DNA of 36,449 nt, taken from contig JAPPBA010000086.1 of the NCBI GenBank assembly GCA_026705295.1, forward strand, positions 1 through 36,449, given 5' to 3'. The first letter of the stretch is position 1, and each line of letters starts with the position of its first letter. The notes below the pieces were generated by a model. That model saw nothing but the letters and a program-made list of their open reading frames with translations. It searched no databases and was not told the origin of the DNA. This DNA is from Candidatus Palauibacter australiensis (lineage in GTDB: Bacteria > Gemmatimonadota > Gemmatimonadetes > Palauibacterales > Palauibacteraceae). Positions 23,688-35,933 of the stretch are shown here, in pieces. The translations under genes and the position numbers were made by a program.

Positions 23688-25531
23688 AGAAATGGCTGAT
23701 TGCGGTCGGCGCGCTGACGGCGGCCTGCGGAGGGAGCGGTCCGGACGAACCGGCGGATCTCGTCCTCATCAACGGAGACGTGTACACGCTCGACGAGGCG
23801 CGGCCGGCAGCCGAGGCGATCGCGGTCCGGGGCGAGCGTATCGCCGTCGTCGGGTCGAACGCGGAGGCCGAGGCGTTCGTGGGCCCGGACACGCGCGTCA
23901 TCGACCTGGCTGGCGCCTTCGTGTCGCCCGGATTCAACGACGGTCATGTCCACGTCGAGAGCACCGGGGCGCTGATCGTGGGCGTGAACCTGCTCGAGGT
24001 GCACGAACCGGAGGGCTTCCGCGAGGAGATCGCGCGCGCGGCCGAGCGCCTGGCGCCGGGCAGCTGGATCACGCGCGGCGACTGGGGCGCCTACGAGGAG
24101 TGGGAGGTGGGATCGACCGGCCGCGAAGGCGAGGACGGCGCTGCGGAGGGCGGCGCTGCGGAGGCCGGCGCTGCGGAGGGCGGCGCTGAGAGTGCCGGCG
24201 GGCCGTTCACGCCGCACCGCGACCTCATCGACGACGTGACCGCGAATCACCCCGTCCTCGTGAACCGCTTCGACCGTTTCGTCTACCTCGCGAACAGCCT
24301 CGCGCTCGACATGGCGGGCATCACGGACGCCACGCCGTCGCCGCCGGGGGGCATGATCGCAAAGGACGAGGACGGCCGGGTCACGGGCATCCTCACCGGC
24401 TCCGCCGTCAACCTCGTCCGGGCCGCCATCACGCCCAAGTCGTTCGAGCAGCGCCTCACCGAGGTCCGCGCCGTGCTCCAGGAGGCCCGCGAGGGTGGCG
24501 TCACCACGATCCAGGACATCACCACCTCCGAGCAGTTCCGCGCCTACCAGGAACTGCACGCCCGCGGCGAGCTGACCGCCCGCATCAACATCCGCCCCTC
24601 GCTCGACAACGTGACCCACACCGGCGGGCTCGGGATCACCCGCGGCTTCGGCGACGACTGGCTCCGCTTCATCGGCTACAAGGCCTGGGTCGACGGGATC
24701 ATGGGCGGCTCCAGCGCGATGTTCTACGAGCAGTACGACCACGCGCCCGGCAACTTCGGGATCGTGCGCCAGATCATGCTTCCCGAGGGCGTCGACGGCC
24801 TCGCCCTCTCCCTGACCCGCGACCAGAACTACGCCGAGTTCCCGACCGGGAACCTCCAGCGGCTCATGCAGGAGGCGGTGCCCACCGGCCTCCCGCCCCA
24901 CATCCACGCCATCGGCGACAAGGCGGTGAAGATCCTGCTCGACCTGTTTGAGGCCGTGTTGAGCGAGCACGACATGATCGAAACGGATCACAGGTGGCGG
25001 ATGATCCACGCACAGGTGGTGGAGGAGGCGGACTTCCACCGTTTCGGCGAACTCAACCTCGTGGCGGAGGTGAACCCGTTTCACATCTCGGACGACATGC
25101 GGTGGATGGAGGAGAGGATCGGCGGAAGATCCCGCGGCGCCTACGCATTCCGGTCGCTCAAGGACGCGGGGGCGGTGCTCGTGTTCGGGAGCGACAGTCC
25201 CGGGACGAACGCGGCCCGCTACTTCCTCCACCCGAGGTACGGACTGTACGCGGCGGTGAGCCGGCAGACGCTGAGCGGCGAGCCGGCCGAGGGCTGGTTC
25301 CCGGATCAGCGGCTCACGATCGAGGAGGCGATCGAGGCCTACACCCGGAACCCGGCCTGGGCATCGTTCGAGGAGGACATCAAGGGCACGCTGACGCCCG
25401 GCAAGCTGGCGGACATCGCCGTGTTCGACGTGGACCTGATCGAGGCCGGCCGGAACGATCCGGCGCGGCTGCTCGAGGCCGAGGCCCTGTACACGATCGT
25501 CGGCGGCCGCATCGTCCATGAACGCGGGTGA
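23684..25531 (+). CDS. YtcJ-type amidohydrolase, probable lipoprotein
   Basis: The 615-residue protein starts MKKWLIAVGALTAACGG (lipoprotein-like signal), then ADLVLINGDVYTLDEARP and the metal site PGFNDGHVH, later PPHIHAIGDKAV and MIHAQ, and FGSDSP near the C-terminus, ending in the amidohydrolase tail TPGKLADIAVFDVD. This matches the YtcJ/exoenzyme-regulatory group of amidohydrolases. Starting at 23684 is supported by the lipobox-like sequence and the 4-nt overlap with the lipocalin gene. An unusual Gly/Ala/Glu linker made of 15-bp repeats (about residues 152-172) interrupts the domain. The substrate is unknown; export to the envelope is inferred. Confidence 0.85.
   Translation: MKKWLIAVGALTAACGGSGPDEPADLVLINGDVYTLDEARPAAEAIAVRGERIAVVGSNAEAEAFVGPDTRVIDLAGAFVSPGFNDGHVHVESTGALIVGVNLLEVHEPEGFREEIARAAERLAPGSWITRGDWGAYEEWEVGSTGREGEDGAAEGGAAEAGAAEGGAESAGGPFTPHRDLIDDVTANHPVLVNRFDRFVYLANSLALDMAGITDATPSPPGGMIAKDEDGRVTGILTGSAVNLVRAAITPKSFEQRLTEVRAVLQEAREGGVTTIQDITTSEQFRAYQELHARGELTARINIRPSLDNVTHTGGLGITRGFGDDWLRFIGYKAWVDGIMGGSSAMFYEQYDHAPGNFGIVRQIMLPEGVDGLALSLTRDQNYAEFPTGNLQRLMQEAVPTGLPPHIHAIGDKAVKILLDLFEAVLSEHDMIETDHRWRMIHAQVVEEADFHRFGELNLVAEVNPFHISDDMRWMEERIGGRSRGAYAFRSLKDAGAVLVFGSDSPGTNAARYFLHPRYGLYAAVSRQTLSGEPAEGWFPDQRLTIEEAIEAYTRNPAWASFEEDIKGTLTPGKLADIAVFDVDLIEAGRNDPARLLEAEALYTIVGGRIVHERG
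24137..24196 (+). repeat. Four 15-bp tandem repeats coding GAAEG-type peptides
   Basis: Units GGCGCTGCGGAGGGC (24137, 24152, 24167, with a diverged fourth at 24182) encode a Gly-Ala-Glu surface linker inside the amidohydrolase. The period of 15 keeps the frame, so copy number can change without loss of function. Confidence 0.85.
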
Positions 25532-25838: not shown

Positions 25839-26246
25839 GTGGCCTACCTCATCGACAAGAGCGCGCTGGCACGCATGGCGCATCCCCGGGTCCACGCACG
25901 GCTCACGCCGGTCATCGAAACGGGCCAGGCGGCGACCTGCGCCATCATCGACCTGGAGGTGCTCTACTCCACCCGTAATGGCGAGGAGCACGCGCGAGCG
26001 CGGGCCCGGCGTGCGCTGGCGTACCGTCACGTTCCACTCACGGAAGCGATCTTTCAGCGGGCCATCGCAGTGCAGGGACTGCTCGCCCGCCGGGCGCAGC
26101 ACCGGGTGCCGATCGCCGACCTCATCATTGCCGCCGCAGCCGAAGCCTCCCACCTGACCGTCCTCCACTACGATGCGGATTTCGACACGATCGCGGCCGT
26201 CACGGGCCAGGTTACCGAATGGGTTGCCCCACGGGGTTCCCTCTAG
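25839..26246 (+). CDS. VapC-like PIN-domain toxin
   Basis: The 135-residue protein has the PIN acidic residues: Asp6 in YLIDKSALARM, Glu40 in IIDLEVLYS, Asp94 in VPIADLIIAAAA, and Asp112/Asp114 in LHYDADFD. These bind Mg2+ in an RNase active site. A GTG start gives a length normal for VapC. With the VapB-like gene it forms a type II toxin-antitoxin pair; free toxin would cut tRNA or rRNA. Downstream lies the gene-free region with tRNA-like repeats, an intriguing neighbourhood for an RNase but not evidence of a link. Confidence 0.85.
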   Translation: MAYLIDKSALARMAHPRVHARLTPVIETGQAATCAIIDLEVLYSTRNGEEHARARARRALAYRHVPLTEAIFQRAIAVQGLLARRAQHRVPIADLIIAAAAEASHLTVLHYDADFDTIAAVTGQVTEWVAPRGSL

Positions 26247-26264
26247 CAGGCGCTTTGGCAGACG

Positions 26265-26314
26265 CTGCTTGAGGCCGCGTTGAGCGAGCACCACATGATC
26301 CAGGAGGAACACAG
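26265..26314 (+). pseudogene. 50-bp fragment related to the YtcJ-type amidohydrolase gene
   Basis: This stretch matches 24944-24993 inside the upstream amidohydrolase at 42 of 50 bases without gaps, and codes LLEAALSEHHMIQEEH against LFEAVLSEHDMIETDH. Changes are spread over codon positions, so it is an old copy or a scrap of a paralogue, not a recent duplication. Similarity stops abruptly at both ends. No open gene contains it. Confidence 0.5.
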
Positions 26315-26360
26315 CTTTACGGGCCTGCGAGCCCACAATAGGTTGACGCACAGAGGGATA

Positions 26361-26432
26361 GGTGGAGGCGCGGGGGATCGAACCCCGCCGGTCGAGTGTC
26401 AAGCCCTAACCGGGTACACCAGTACCGCCCCC
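26361..26432 (-). ncRNA. tRNA-like cloverleaf, unit 1
   Basis: On the minus strand four helices abut: GGGGGC/GCCTCC (one G-T pair), GGTAC-TGGT-GTACC, CGGTT/GACCG closing a 14-nt loop, and GCGGGG/CCCCGC closing the T-loop sequence TTCGATC. The 3' end reads ACC then T. There are no linker bases at tRNA positions 8, 9 or 26, and the anticodon-like loop is too long, so it is not a normal tRNA. Confidence 0.5.
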
Positions 26433-26455
26433 GCCGAACCCTCTTTCGAGGGAGA

Positions 26456-26527
26456 GGTGGAGGCGCGGGGGATCGAACCCCGCCGGTGGAGTGTCAAGCC
26501 CGCACCGGGTACACCAGTACCGCCCCC
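26456..26527 (-). ncRNA. tRNA-like cloverleaf, unit 2
   Basis: The fold is the same as unit 1. The anticodon-like stem is CGGTG/CACCG, all Watson-Crick, where unit 1 has a T-G pair: a compensating change that supports the helix. Confidence 0.5.
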
Positions 26528-26550
26528 GCCGAACCCTCTTTCGAGGGAGA

Positions 26551-26622
26551 GGTGGAGGCGCGGGGGATCGAACCCCGCCGGTCGGGTCTCAAGTCCACAC
26601 CGGGTACACCAGTACCGCCCCC
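26551..26622 (-). ncRNA. tRNA-like cloverleaf, unit 3
   Basis: The fold is the same, with the most diverged central loop (TGGACTTGAGACCC) and one G-G mismatch at the top of the anticodon-like stem. The acceptor-, D- and T-like arms are unchanged from the other units. Confidence 0.45.
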
Positions 26623-26704
26623 GCCGAACCCTCGAACGAGGGCTCTGACGCAATTCTCCGGTACGGGCACATCCGGCTATCAAGACGGTTTGGGGGTGAC
26701 CTGC

Positions 26705-31808: not shown

Positions 31809-31845
31809 TGACGGGCCGGGGCGCCAGCCGCCCCCGGCCCGGTCA
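31809..31845. terminator. Strong bidirectional hairpin between convergent genes
   Basis: GGGCCGGGGCG (31813-31823) pairs with CGCCCCCGGCCC (31829-31840), with one bulged C and a CCAGC loop. The outer TGAC/GGTCA bases include the minus-strand ATPase stop (31843-31845). It would end or protect both transcripts. A direct repeat of CTGACCCGCAG lies just upstream (31780 and 31796). Confidence 0.6.
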
Positions 31846-33147
31846 GGGTCCGAGCGCGCCGATGGGGATGACGTTTACGCCATCCGGGCGGTGGTAGCCG
31901 TAGGGACTGCCCGTGATCACGCCCAGCGCCGCCGGTTCGCCGGTGCGCTCCGTGTCGACCCGGTCCGCGAACTTCAGTAGAGTTTGCGCCGCCTCCTCGA
32001 TGCGTCCTGCGCCGAGCTTGATCTCGAAGGCCGCCCACCTGCTCGGCCCTCCGTCCACGATCGCGTCCACCTCGAGATCGGTGTTGTCGCGGTAGTGGTA
32101 GACGCTCGCGTGGTTGCCCTGTGCGTACACGCGCAGGTCCCGCACGGCCATGGATTCGAATAGCAACCCGAACCATTGAAGGTCGCGCAGCAGGTGTTCC
32201 GGCCCGGCGCCCAGGGCGGCCACGGCGAGAGACGGGTCCGCGAAGTGCCGCTTCGGCGTGTTCCTGAGTCGCGAACGCGAGCGAAGGTGCGGGGCCCACG
32301 GCGGCTGATGCTCGACAACCATGAGCCGCTCGAGCGCGCCCAGGTACGAGTGCGCGGTCTCGCGCGAGAGCGAGGCGTCCGAGCCGCCCGCGTCTGCCGC
32401 CATCGTCGCGACGGTGGCACACGTCGCCGTATTGCGTGCGATCGAACTCAGAAACCGTCTCACTCTTTCGGGATCTCTCGCGATGCCATCGACACGCCGG
32501 ATGTCGGTGCGACAGATCTCGTCGAGGTAGTCCCGGTTGGCCACCAGCGCGTCTTCCACCGACGGTGCGCGGAGGTGCCCGGGCCATCCGCCCACGCACA
32601 GCAGCTCCACGATTTCGTCGAGCGAGAGTTCGTGTTTCAGGCTTGGCGCGGCCTCTCCGCGGAGCAGGCGCGTCAACGAGACACCGCCGCCGGCCGGCTT
32701 CTGCGGGCGGTGGCCCTTCGTGCCCGCCAGCTCGAACAGCGACATGGGACGGAGCCGAACTCGACTCATCCGTCCGGCGCCCGTGTGCCGCGTGATGTCG
32801 TCGGGAGGGACCGCCGATCCCGTGAGAATGAAGTGCCCTCTGCCGGGGCGGTCATCCACCGCCCGGCGGATGTAGTTCCAGATGGCCGGTTCCACCTGCC
32901 ACTCGTCGATCAGCCGGGGTTCGGGACCTTCCAGGAGGAGCCGCGGGTCCACCGCCATCGCCTCGTTCACGGACGGGTCGGCATCCATGAGTAGTTCGCT
33001 CGATGCCGCCTGCCGGGCGGTTGTCGTCTTTCCGCACACGCGGGGGCCCTCGATGACGACAGCCCCCGCGGAAGCGAGCCGCCGGGCCAACTCGCGGTCC
33101 GCGACGCGGGGGATGTAGTCCGAAACGGATCGGGGATCGGGTACCAT
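31843..33147 (-). CDS. DUF4143-type P-loop ATPase
   Basis: The 434-residue protein has Walker A GPRVCGKT (34-41), Walker B LIDEWQ (79-84), a sensor-like FILTGS, a winged-helix region and the C-terminal DUF4143 domain with LEVDAIVDGG and AFEIKLG, which recall a PD-(D/E)XK nuclease core. These ATPases are widespread accessory proteins of unknown role. ATG 33147 is chosen since it matches the usual family start. No ribosome site precedes it, but a promoter ends 6 nt before it (33154-33182), so the mRNA may be leaderless. The upstream frame on the same strand lacks family similarity. Confidence 0.88.
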   Translation of the reverse strand: MVPDPRSVSDYIPRVADRELARRLASAGAVVIEGPRVCGKTTTARQAASSELLMDADPSVNEAMAVDPRLLLEGPEPRLIDEWQVEPAIWNYIRRAVDDRPGRGHFILTGSAVPPDDITRHTGAGRMSRVRLRPMSLFELAGTKGHRPQKPAGGGVSLTRLLRGEAAPSLKHELSLDEIVELLCVGGWPGHLRAPSVEDALVANRDYLDEICRTDIRRVDGIARDPERVRRFLSSIARNTATCATVATMAADAGGSDASLSRETAHSYLGALERLMVVEHQPPWAPHLRSRSRLRNTPKRHFADPSLAVAALGAGPEHLLRDLQWFGLLFESMAVRDLRVYAQGNHASVYHYRDNTDLEVDAIVDGGPSRWAAFEIKLGAGRIEEAAQTLLKFADRVDTERTGEPAALGVITGSPYGYHRPDGVNVIPIGALGP

Positions 33148-33153
33148 GATCGG

Positions 33154-33182
33154 AATATGTTGGTCCGTTTGGCGATTTGCAA
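33154..33182 (-). promoter_or_regulatory. Promoter for the DUF4143 ATPase, possibly leaderless
   Basis: Minus strand: TTGCAA (33177-33182) as -35, a 17-bp spacer, and CATATT (33154-33159) as -10. The ATG starts 7 nt after the -10, about where transcription would begin. The -35 is also the first of four spaced repeats. Confidence 0.45.
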
Positions 33183-33268
33183 CGTATACAGTCGATATGT
33201 TGCAATATCTTCGATCGTAGTCCTGCAACGCGCGTGGTCGTACTCTTGCAATGTCCGGTGCTCGGGCT
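33177..33268. repeat. Four TTGCAA-headed repeats with a 23-bp period
   Basis: TTGCAA at 33177, 33200 and 33246 and CTGCAA at 33223 are spaced exactly 23 bp. Units 1-3 also share an RTCGWA block near their ends (GTCGATA, ATCGTAG, GTCGTAC). This iteron-like array covers the region upstream of the ATPase and touches the M14 stop codon, and suggests cooperative binding of a regulator. Confidence 0.6.
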
Positions 33269-35933
33269 AGCGGCCGGGGCCGAGGAGGACGGCGTTCATG
33301 AACAGGAGTTGCGTCGCCTCGGTGTAGGCGCGGTAGTTCGGGTCTTCGGCGAACGCGACGAGCTGGCCGCGTCCCACAGGTTGATGGATGAGGAAGGCCT
33401 TGCTCGCGAGTTGCGGGCGCGACTCCTCCCACACGATTCCGCTCAGCACCAGGTTCTCGAGTGCCGCGTAGCGTCCCACGTTCGTGCCCTCGTCGAGCGT
33501 GATCGGACGGAAGACGCGGGAGCCCGAGACGAGGACGCCGATCTCGCCATCGGTGCCGGCGGCGAGCCAGTGTTCCGTGTCGAGCAGCGTGCGCAGGATC
33601 GCGCCGGGCACGCCCTCCGGCGACTCGTCTTCGGGCGAGATCGCGTCGAGGTACTCAATGGGTTGCTCGGGGGTGTCGGGCTCCGGCGGGTCGTCGCCCT
33701 CGGCGCGGCCGCCCCGGCGCTCCGCCTCGGTGGCGAGGAGCCCCGCCCGGGAGGCCCAGCGCGAGGACTCCGCCATCGTGATGAGCGTGCCGCCGTCGCG
33801 CATCCACGCCTGGAGGCGGTCGCGCAGGCCGTCGCCCACGGCGCCGCCGTAGTTGCCGCTCGGGAAGACGATGACGTCGTAGTCCGCCAGCCGCGCCTGA
33901 CCGAGGCTGGACGCCCGCACGGCCGTCGTGCGCTGGCCGTAGCGCCGCTCGAGGACGTAGCGCGTCCAGCCCACGGAGTAGCTCCCGCCCGGGGAATCGT
34001 AGACGAGGAGCACGCGCGGCTCGCTCAGCGCCCGGACGTAGCGGCTGCCGAGCGACATGCCCTCGCGCACGTACGCGTCGTCGACCGGCACGACCTCGGC
34101 GCGGTGCCGTGCGGCGATGCCGGCCAGGCGCTGGCGCAGGTCGGGGCCGTTCTCGGCTGCCCGGAGGATGGCGGTGCCGACGCCGAAGCGGCGGCCGTCC
34201 AGCGTGAACTCCGCACCGGCGGCCCGGACACGGAGGCCCTCGCGCAGCGCCTCGGCGACCGCCGCGGCCCCGTTCGTGCCCCAGGGGACGAGGTACCCGA
34301 CGAGCGCCTCGGGCAGCGGGTCGACGGGCCCGACTCCGCCGTCGCCCCCGCCGTCGCCTCCGTCCGCGTCGCCGGCCACCTCCGGGCGCGCGGCCGCGTC
34401 GCTCGCGGTCAGCGCCGCGCCGCGCGCGCCCGTCGCGGCGGTCTCGACCGCCTCCACGTCCCACAGCAGCGGCTGGCTCCACGCGGTCAGGTCGTAGATC
34501 TCGTCCGGCTGCCGGTTCGCGCGGCGTTCGATCTGCCGCTGCACGAACTCCTCCTCCATCGGCACATGCGCGTCGAGCAGGTTATGGATGAGGCGGTGCG
34601 CGGGCTGGTCGAGCGGCACGATGAAGCTCGAACCGGCCGGTAGCGTCCGGTCGCCGGCCGTCACCGGGCCGGAGGCGCGGAACACCTCGATCCCGTTCTC
34701 GACGAGCATGAGGGCGAGCCGCTCCGCCATCCCCGGGTCGTGCGCCGAGTGGAGCACGATCTCGGCCGGTCCCCGCTGCCCGAGCGCGATCCCCTCGCGC
34801 AGGTACGCCAGGTAGTCCCGCAGGATCCGGTCCCGGTTCCGCGCGGACGTGAGCGCGGTCTCGATCCCCGCCGTGAAGTGGTGCAGCACGCCGTCGCCGT
34901 AGGTGAGCAGGTCGTCGTCCGACTGCCGCAGCCTGAGACCGCCCGAACCCGCCTGCTCGTACGTCATCCCCAGCGCGCCGTAGCCCATCGGCCACATGTC
35001 CACGTAGCCCGGATAGAAGAGGTCGTACACGTCCCGGTTGAAGTAGGCGAAGCCGCGCTCGTCGAAGCGCGCCGCGATCGCCTCCCCGAACACGTCCATG
35101 AGCGCGACCTGCCGCTCCCCGAACCAGGGGTTGGAGGGCGGCGCCGTCGGCGGGAAGAAGTAGGTCGCGTCCCCTCCCATCTCGTGCAGGTCCGCCACGA
35201 TGTGGGGGCGGAACTCGAGGAAGATGTCCACCTTCCCGCGGGTCTCGACCTGGCTCTGGATGAAGAGGTCCCGGTTGAGGTCGAACAGGTAGTGGTTCCC
35301 GCGGCCGCCGGGCCACGGCGGGTCGTGCTCGGCGGAGATGCGGGCCTCGTCCGGCCAGCGCGCCTGCGCGACCGAGTTCTGGTACACGAAGCGGTTCCGC
35401 CCGTCCGGGTTCTCCAGGGGATCGATGAGGACGAGCGACTCCGAGAGGATGAGATCCACGTCGGGATCCCCCGTCGCCGCGAGCAGATGGTAGGCTTCGG
35501 CCATCGCGGCGCCGCTGGGGCTGATCTCGTCGCCGTGAATCGAGTGCATCAGCGCGGTGACGACCGGAAGCTCGGCCAGCAGCGCTTCCGCCTCCTCGTC
35601 GGACAGGCCGCGGGGGTCGGCGAGCCGCGCGATCCCGGCCTTGACCTCCTCGAGCCGCGCCATGCGTTCCGCCGAGCCGATGACGAGGACGACGAGCGGC
35701 CGCCCCTCCCAGCTCTCCCCGTACTGGATCAGATGCGTCCGCTCCGGCGCCGCCGCGGCGAGCGCCTCGATGTAGCGGAGGACGTCGGCCGGCGGCGTGA
35801 CGACGTCGCGGAAGCCGTGTCCCGCCACCTCTTCGAGCGTCGGGATGTCGGGGTCGTAGCGCGTTCCGGGCGCGAGTTCCTGCGTCACGGCGGGCGCCTG
35901 CATCAGCGCGGCGAGCGCGAGCGTGGATAGCAC
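33267..35933 (-). CDS. Secreted M14-like metallopeptidase with extra C-terminal domain
   Basis: The 888-residue protein has a signal peptide (LSTLALAALMQAPAVTQ), then an M14 carboxypeptidase-like domain: zinc ligands HGDE (His133, Glu136) and His250 in ADLHEMGG, with LIDPLENPDGRNRF in between. The region about 470-600 leads to a Gly/Asp-rich linker (GDADGGDGGGDGG) and a C-terminal flavodoxin or glutamine-amidotransferase-like domain (VLLVYDSPGGSY, YDVIVFPSGNYGG, WMRDGGTLITM). GTG 35933 is chosen because GGAG lies 8 nt before it and a signal peptide begins there; the longer reading runs into the divergent gene. It should act on peptides or amides outside the cytoplasm. The catalytic glutamate is not confidently located. 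Confidence 0.82.
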   Translation of the reverse strand: MLSTLALAALMQAPAVTQELAPGTRYDPDIPTLEEVAGHGFRDVVTPPADVLRYIEALAAAAPERTHLIQYGESWEGRPLVVLVIGSAERMARLEEVKAGIARLADPRGLSDEEAEALLAELPVVTALMHSIHGDEISPSGAAMAEAYHLLAATGDPDVDLILSESLVLIDPLENPDGRNRFVYQNSVAQARWPDEARISAEHDPPWPGGRGNHYLFDLNRDLFIQSQVETRGKVDIFLEFRPHIVADLHEMGGDATYFFPPTAPPSNPWFGERQVALMDVFGEAIAARFDERGFAYFNRDVYDLFYPGYVDMWPMGYGALGMTYEQAGSGGLRLRQSDDDLLTYGDGVLHHFTAGIETALTSARNRDRILRDYLAYLREGIALGQRGPAEIVLHSAHDPGMAERLALMLVENGIEVFRASGPVTAGDRTLPAGSSFIVPLDQPAHRLIHNLLDAHVPMEEEFVQRQIERRANRQPDEIYDLTAWSQPLLWDVEAVETAATGARGAALTASDAAARPEVAGDADGGDGGGDGGVGPVDPLPEALVGYLVPWGTNGAAAVAEALREGLRVRAAGAEFTLDGRRFGVGTAILRAAENGPDLRQRLAGIAARHRAEVVPVDDAYVREGMSLGSRYVRALSEPRVLLVYDSPGGSYSVGWTRYVLERRYGQRTTAVRASSLGQARLADYDVIVFPSGNYGGAVGDGLRDRLQAWMRDGGTLITMAESSRWASRAGLLATEAERRGGRAEGDDPPEPDTPEQPIEYLDAISPEDESPEGVPGAILRTLLDTEHWLAAGTDGEIGVLVSGSRVFRPITLDEGTNVGRYAALENLVLSGIVWEESRPQLASKAFLIHQPVGRGQLVAFAEDPNYRAYTEATQLLFMNAVLLGPGR

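Follow-up and report, generated by a model that had tools for sequence, protein, structure and literature searches.

The window, as we call the whole 36,449-nt stretch of DNA that was analysed, carries a tandem array of three 95-bp units on its minus strand (26353–26642). TRF places a repeat of period 95, with 3.0 copies and 95% matches, at 26353–26633, the three units can be aligned over 95–100 columns, and a search pattern matched three times in the window versus never in 100 dinucleotide shuffles. The three-unit array noted in a preliminary description of this DNA is therefore real. Each unit holds a 72-nt core. That of unit 3, the first on the minus strand, lies with its ACC end at 26551–26622, and those of units 2 and 1 follow at 26456–26527 and 26361–26432. 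Small hairpins with a changing loop, also seen earlier, accompany the units on the same strand: sequence and fold give CCCTC-GAAA-GAGGG at the junction of units 1 and 2 (26439–26452), a second linker hairpin lies in the sequence between units 2 and 3 (26534–26547), and a leader hairpin, CCCTC-GTTC-GAGGG, stands ahead of unit 3 (26629–26642). Alternatively, the linker GAGGG and CCCTC pair across each unit as a closing outer stem, and the 95-nt fold shows that form. The array is flanked by a 7-bp direct repeat, TGACGCA on the plus strand (26344–26350 and 26646–26652), which by its sequence is a possible candidate for a target-site duplication.

A VapC-like PIN-domain toxin gene (25839–26246, plus strand) converges with the array, and read-through from it would be antisense to all three units. 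A consensus search found no promoter or terminator around the array, a weak test in DNA so rich in GC. The array lies in a variable stretch of about 450 bp (26247–26700) that, among the congeners compared, occurs only in G000 and G002. Several congeners instead have a convergent vapC directly after the DCC gene, at a distance of 20–50 bp, and others are without vapC too. Only 2 of 17 genomes of the genus have the array, both with vapC beside it. At the corresponding position the congener G002 has just one unit, with a core identical to that of unit 2, and the window's own genome holds no further copy.

Within the variable stretch, 50 bp (26265–26314) are 84% identical to part of an amidohydrolase coding sequence (24944–24993). 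The earlier suggestion that the units are hot spots for integration finds no support, as Pfam shows no integrase among the neighbouring ORFs, even though the array sits in a variable stretch missing from most relatives. The array could be a relic without current function in the host: a passenger from an IS1595-like or phage mobile element, with slippage at the CCCTC/GAGGG linker giving the three copies. With just 2 of the 17 genomes carrying it, it could be a decaying passenger, and the duplicated amidohydrolase fragment, the possible target-site duplication, the CCCTC microhomology at the unit junctions and the failure to find an antisense partner (see below) point the same way. We consider a relic quite improbable; the unit structure is fully intact, and the distribution of changes among the copies also speaks against it.

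Fold of the units

All three cores share a 7-bp acceptor stem (GGGGGCG/CGCCUCC) followed by ACC, a D-arm (GUAC-UGGU-GUAC), an anticodon-arm base (CCGGU...ACCGG) and a T-arm (CGGGG-UUCGAUC-CCCCG). The helices of this cloverleaf abut directly, so the preliminary description was right in its four abutting helices, T-arm loop TTCGATC, ACC 3′ end and absence of linker bases. It erred in seeing a 14-nt central loop and no 7-nt anticodon loop. The interval between CCGGU and ACCGG is 16 nt long and structured, and it contains GGG-CUUGACA-CUC in units 1 and 2 and UGG-ACUUGAGAC-CCG in unit 3. This region forms a bulged extension of the anticodon stem, closed by an anticodon-type loop of 7 nt, CUUGA(C/G)A, in which the triplet UGA follows U33. 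The loop reads CUUGACA in unit 1 (26397–26403) and unit 2 (26492–26498) and CUUGAGA in unit 3 (26587–26593), and the MFE structure of unit 2 draws exactly these 7 nt as a loop. MFE folds agree with the cloverleaf, at z values of about −2.0 to −2.9 that are modest because the DNA is very GC-rich. Folding energy alone is insufficient to decide the structure; covariation among relatives decides it.

The acceptor, D and T arms are identical in four copies (the three window units and that of G002). All six variable core columns fall within the 16 nt of the anticodon region, an outcome with a chance of about 1e-4 if changes were evenly spread, and this confinement argues against a relic. The changes include A.C to G-C, together with C to U, in the extended anticodon stem. 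Stem changes are thus partly compensatory, as had been proposed, and they are not spread over the stems generally.

In common with canonical bacterial tRNAs, the units have a 7-bp acceptor, a 5-bp T-stem, a UUCRA T-loop and GG in the D-loop. They differ in lacking linkers 8–9 and 26, a variable loop and recognition by tRNA finders: ARAGORN called 0 tRNA genes in the window, and an Rfam scan of the window gave no RF00005 match at gathering and did not report the units. Each unit carries the alanine identity elements G3:U70 and A73.

A family of compact tRNA-like genes

A covariance model built from the window cores (R1) recovers unit 3, as do TRF and the alignment. In another genome of the class it found an outlier, at 52 bits, that lies in an IS1595 transposon. 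The IS1595-borne copy has the same UGGU D-loop and GACUUGAGACC loop as the window units, and its stems differ. Exact-sequence scans of viral and genome contigs returned no match to the units, and DNA similarity searches of plasmid and phage collections returned chance or T-arm matches only. Since the exact scans were empty, the search turned to loop and D-loop patterns and to covariance models. Parts of the D-loop, T-loop and TCCA end were set by the pattern; the anticodon stem, acceptor positions 4–7 and, apart from one base, the pairing of the D-stem were left free. The 5′ ends of its matches were set by best acceptor pairing and are biased toward an acceptor helix. The loop pattern, which had 0 matches in 100 window shuffles, yielded relatives in viruses and several phyla, and a loop-free pattern added further viral relatives. 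Three pattern matches (L098, L107 and L094) were discarded as ordinary tRNA-Val or permuted tmRNA.

We aligned 12 gap-free 69-nt relatives from other bacteria and viruses, with no window sequence among them. The preliminary description had named a larger alignment as the place where covariation might fail; in these relatives it is strong. Paired cells make up 88.9%, versus 62.7% after shuffling, and double changes number 78 versus 28.5. The D-stem is 97.9% paired, and each of its 4 pairs shows changes on both sides; the acceptor, D- and T-stems are 98–99% paired. Pairing in the anticodon stem is lower (∼70%) because bulge positions shift. A second model (R2), built from the 12 relatives, scores window units 3, 2 and 1 at 66.6 (E 6e-19), 64.7 and 64.2 bits. 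By comparison, ordinary tRNA-Ala reached at most 38 bits in a first panel and ordinary tRNAs at most 45–47 bits across 346 genomes of the phylum; overall, the 64–67 bits of the window units stand against a maximum of ∼45 for ordinary tRNA-Ala. These data place the array firmly in a compact tRNA-like family.

The same scores bear on a possible origin from tmRNA, prompted by a common acceptor stem, in which an integrating element would have duplicated the tRNA-like domain of ssrA as a fragment or attachment site. The true host tmRNA, on contig C39, has the same 7-bp acceptor (GGGGGCG/CGCCTCC), and the acceptor and T-arm of the units match the 3′ ends of tmRNA and tRNA-Ala genes in members of the class. 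However, the tmRNA model RF00023 gives 31.3/30.4 bits over 72 nt only, under its 47-bit cut-off and under ordinary tRNA-Ala. The D-arm and anticodon arm fit R2 instead (the host's own tmRNA scores 28 bits with R2), and no integrase was found nearby. The units also differ from tmRNA in having an anticodon arm and no mRNA-like domain or tag. The model scores largely refute this origin, which we regard as very improbable; what units, tmRNA and tRNA-Ala have in common is the alanine identity G3:U70 and A73.

Family members are scattered over viruses, transposons and distant bacteria. R2 exceeds 50 bits in only four of the 346 phylum genomes (G000, G002, G180 and G295), in 9 of 240 genomes of a candidate-phyla group and in 1 of 148 Acidimicrobiia-class genomes. 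With so few carriers per set, the distribution is sporadic. In family f6 of the class, a trio (L062–L064, beside a DUF5343-like gene) reaches only 38–40 bits with R2, the range of ordinary tRNAs; it may be a relative.

All members checked have the 7-bp acceptor, G3:U70, A73 and a UGGU-type D-loop; G3:U70 occurs in 12/12 aligned relatives, A73 with it, and in all 11 members found later. Their anticodon stem is long and interrupted and carries a 7-nt loop in which the anticodon varies: UGA in the window, and CUA, UUA, CAA, CGU and UAC among relatives. Carriers often hold several copies with different loops (UGA, CUA, UAA, CAA, GUC), with multi-copy sets of many anticodons in WWE3, Acidimicrobiia and Peregrinibacteria, and the prospective set adds CGU, UGU, UAC, UAG and CGA. 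These triplets were read by eye from the loop, the preceding base being taken as U33. In the loops, U almost invariably precedes the presumed anticodon, with A at its 3′ end, and position 37 is a pyrimidine in many members, which is unusual in decoding tRNAs. Two phage members of the same architecture have a genuine alanine anticodon, UGC, and lie within tRNA arrays.

This ∼70-nt family is apparently undescribed. Rfam has no family for the compact tRNA-like RNA or for its antisense partner, and no description of the family or of a tRNA/anti-anticodon pair was found among the open-access papers searched, an absence that is no proof of novelty. The closest known RNAs differ in several respects. 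Allo-tRNAs (Mukai et al. 2017, as reviewed in PMC7609411) have a 12-bp acceptor branch of 8/4 or 9/3, together with a long variable arm. The compact family is 7/5 and linker-free and in many relatives comes with a cognate antisense RNA; the window units likewise have a 7/5 branch, and no variable loop. The family resembles the Ma (M. alvus)-type tRNA-Pyl (PMC7609411) in having no base between acceptor and D-stem, a 4-nt D-loop and a long interrupted anticodon stem. Unlike that tRNA, it has alanine identity (G3:U70/A73), a GG D-loop, a UUCGA T-loop and varied anticodons.

Antisense partners and proposed working

In candidate-phyla bacteria, Eremiobacterota and two viruses, many relatives lie next to a small RNA gene. 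Over 9–19 nt, the 5′ end of that gene is the complement of its own tRNA's anticodon arm. Reading of the flanks showed short complements to the anticodon loop immediately after promoter-like boxes, and many partners have TTGACA/TATAAT boxes and a terminator, with no room for a gene. We searched systematically within 400 nt of each member, leaving out the matches of window units 1 and 2 to each other. Of 52 members, 18 had a partner at p ≤ 0.01, and of 11 in a prospective set identified by R2 alone, 8 had one at p ≤ 0.005. Overall, 26 of 63 members have a partner, compared to 6 of 212 ordinary tRNAs (Fisher 7e-14); the control comprised 213 ARAGORN tRNAs, 7 of them at p ≤ 0.01, of which one was a family member and was removed. 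Cognate duplexes average −24.5 kcal/mol versus −9.0 for non-cognate ones, and the cognate duplex ranks first in 21 of 23 cases. A −10 box match of at least 5/6 is seen in 16 of 23 partners, versus 16% at random. Partners lie up- or downstream and on either strand, and hence it is the pairing that is conserved, not the arrangement.

For the window array, no partner was seen by exact complement within 400 nt or by duplex scan within 700 nt, and a pattern search of the G000 and G002 genomes gave nothing above background. Nor was one found within 400–700 nt of the G002 unit, the IS1595 copy or most Acidimicrobiia copies. One candidate in the window, GGCTATCAAGACGG at 26671–26684 (plus strand), mismatches the loop region at two positions and was not taken as a partner. 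Since the array has no identifiable partner, its membership is claimed firmly and its function only provisionally.

The preliminary description had offered processed RNAs or tRNA mimics, a view supported by covariation across phyla, the complete acceptor, T-arm and ACC end, and the elbow nucleotides (GG in the D-loop, UUCGA in the T-loop). A non-decoding mimic would be charged or bound like tRNA-Ala and act as a decoy or regulator (of AlaRS, RNase P, EF-Tu or a tRNA-cleaving toxin such as VapC), its loop serving RNA–RNA pairing. The frequent pyrimidine at position 37, the use of the loop as the antisense pairing site in relatives, and the adjoining PIN-domain VapC gene in G000 and G002 suggest as much. 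However, the nearly constant U and A around the presumed anticodon and the two phage members with UGC argue for decoding, and other relatives have VapC without the array. We think a mimic rather unlikely.

G3:U70 is what AlaRS recognises, with little regard for the anticodon. Because G3:U70 is fixed while the anticodon changes, the family is best interpreted as alanine tRNAs that miscode, with the dedicated antisense RNA to the anticodon as their off-switch. Allo-tRNAs with G3:U70 are reported to insert alanine (PMC7609411). At a probability of roughly 55%, we take the window array to encode a compact, non-canonical tRNA of the alanine type in three copies, its anticodon switched to UGA, the complement of the serine codon UCA, and to belong to a sporadic family that is scattered horizontally. 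A minus-strand transcript would be processed by RNase P and at the 3′ end to release the units, which would then be completed to CCA. Host AlaRS would charge them with alanine via G3:U70 without reading the anticodon, and the charged RNA would either put alanine in at an incorrect codon or compete for that codon. In relatives, the adjacent antisense RNA would pair with the anticodon arm and turn the tRNA off, the pair acting as RNA toxin and RNA antitoxin or as a repressed suppressor tRNA. The host seldom uses UCA (1.5 per 1000 codons across ten ORFs), so the reach of miscoding would be limited.

We infer that the relatives are alanine-charged tRNAs with a switched anticodon that antisense RNA keeps silent, possibly as all-RNA toxin–antitoxins; a toxin–antitoxin role would be the simplest reason for their scattered, multi-copy occurrence, partly on mobile elements. 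An adjacent cognate antisense gene, as in RNA-only toxin–antitoxins, is present in many relatives, and none was found for the window array. CreTA and other RNA-only (type VIII) systems would, if our reading is right, be similar in that both partners are RNA and act at the level of tRNA and translation. CreT sequesters a tRNA and is repressed by Cascade-guided CreA (PMC8501985). The present family differs, as the tRNA-like RNA is itself the presumed effector and its partner pairs with the anticodon arm. More tentatively, and at somewhat less than even odds, the family may be an undescribed class of all-RNA toxin–antitoxin or addiction modules, in which an alanine-charged mini-tRNA with a switched anticodon mistranslates a sense or stop codon and a ∼50–75-nt antisense antidote invades exactly its anticodon arm with the 5′ end. 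Such modules would reside in viruses and many candidate-phyla genomes, relatives without a partner would occur in an IS1595 transposon and elsewhere, and the window array would be a partnerless, amplified outlier. If so, standard tRNA finders and Rfam have missed a whole family of inherently miscoding alanine tRNAs, a new route for RNA alone to control or poison translation. The family would supply natural compact suppressor tRNAs, and the idea, raised before, that allo-tRNAs are part of mobile elements or toxin–antitoxin systems would become directly testable.

Neighbours of other family members

A complete IS1595-family transposon with perfect 24-bp terminal repeats (L089, 1–3850, on G180:C50; L124 is the same element) contains several cargo reading frames and one tRNA-like gene at 1491–1561. 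In three other loci, a tRNA-like element lies downstream of a DUF5343-like gene (L090, 7942–8010; L091, 7378–7446; L092, 7112–7179), adjoining a type I restriction gene in L092. In L091 and L092 it is followed by a Shine–Dalgarno sequence, a short frame, ATG CCA CCG CCG CCG TAG (M-P-P-P-P-stop), and hairpins; the counterpart of this frame in L090 is TTG AAA CCG CCG TAG. A mutually similar set of ATPase genes lies near tRNA-like genes in L099 and L121, and the window has such an AAA_14/DUF4143 ATPase at 31843–33432 (minus strand).

In two Acidimicrobiia genomes, members lie between genes that read, by translation, as selA-like and selB-like (L100, 4755–4823; L105, 2270–2338), and in L100 a 9-nt loop complement overlaps the presumed selB ribosome-binding site. 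The member at L195 3656–3723 has the loop CUCUAAA, with an anticodon, CUA, complementary to the amber stop codon. A compact tRNA-like gene with the loop CUUUGCA (L210, 3462–3622) adjoins a tRNA called Ala(UGC) by ARAGORN, whose acceptor is without G3:U70.
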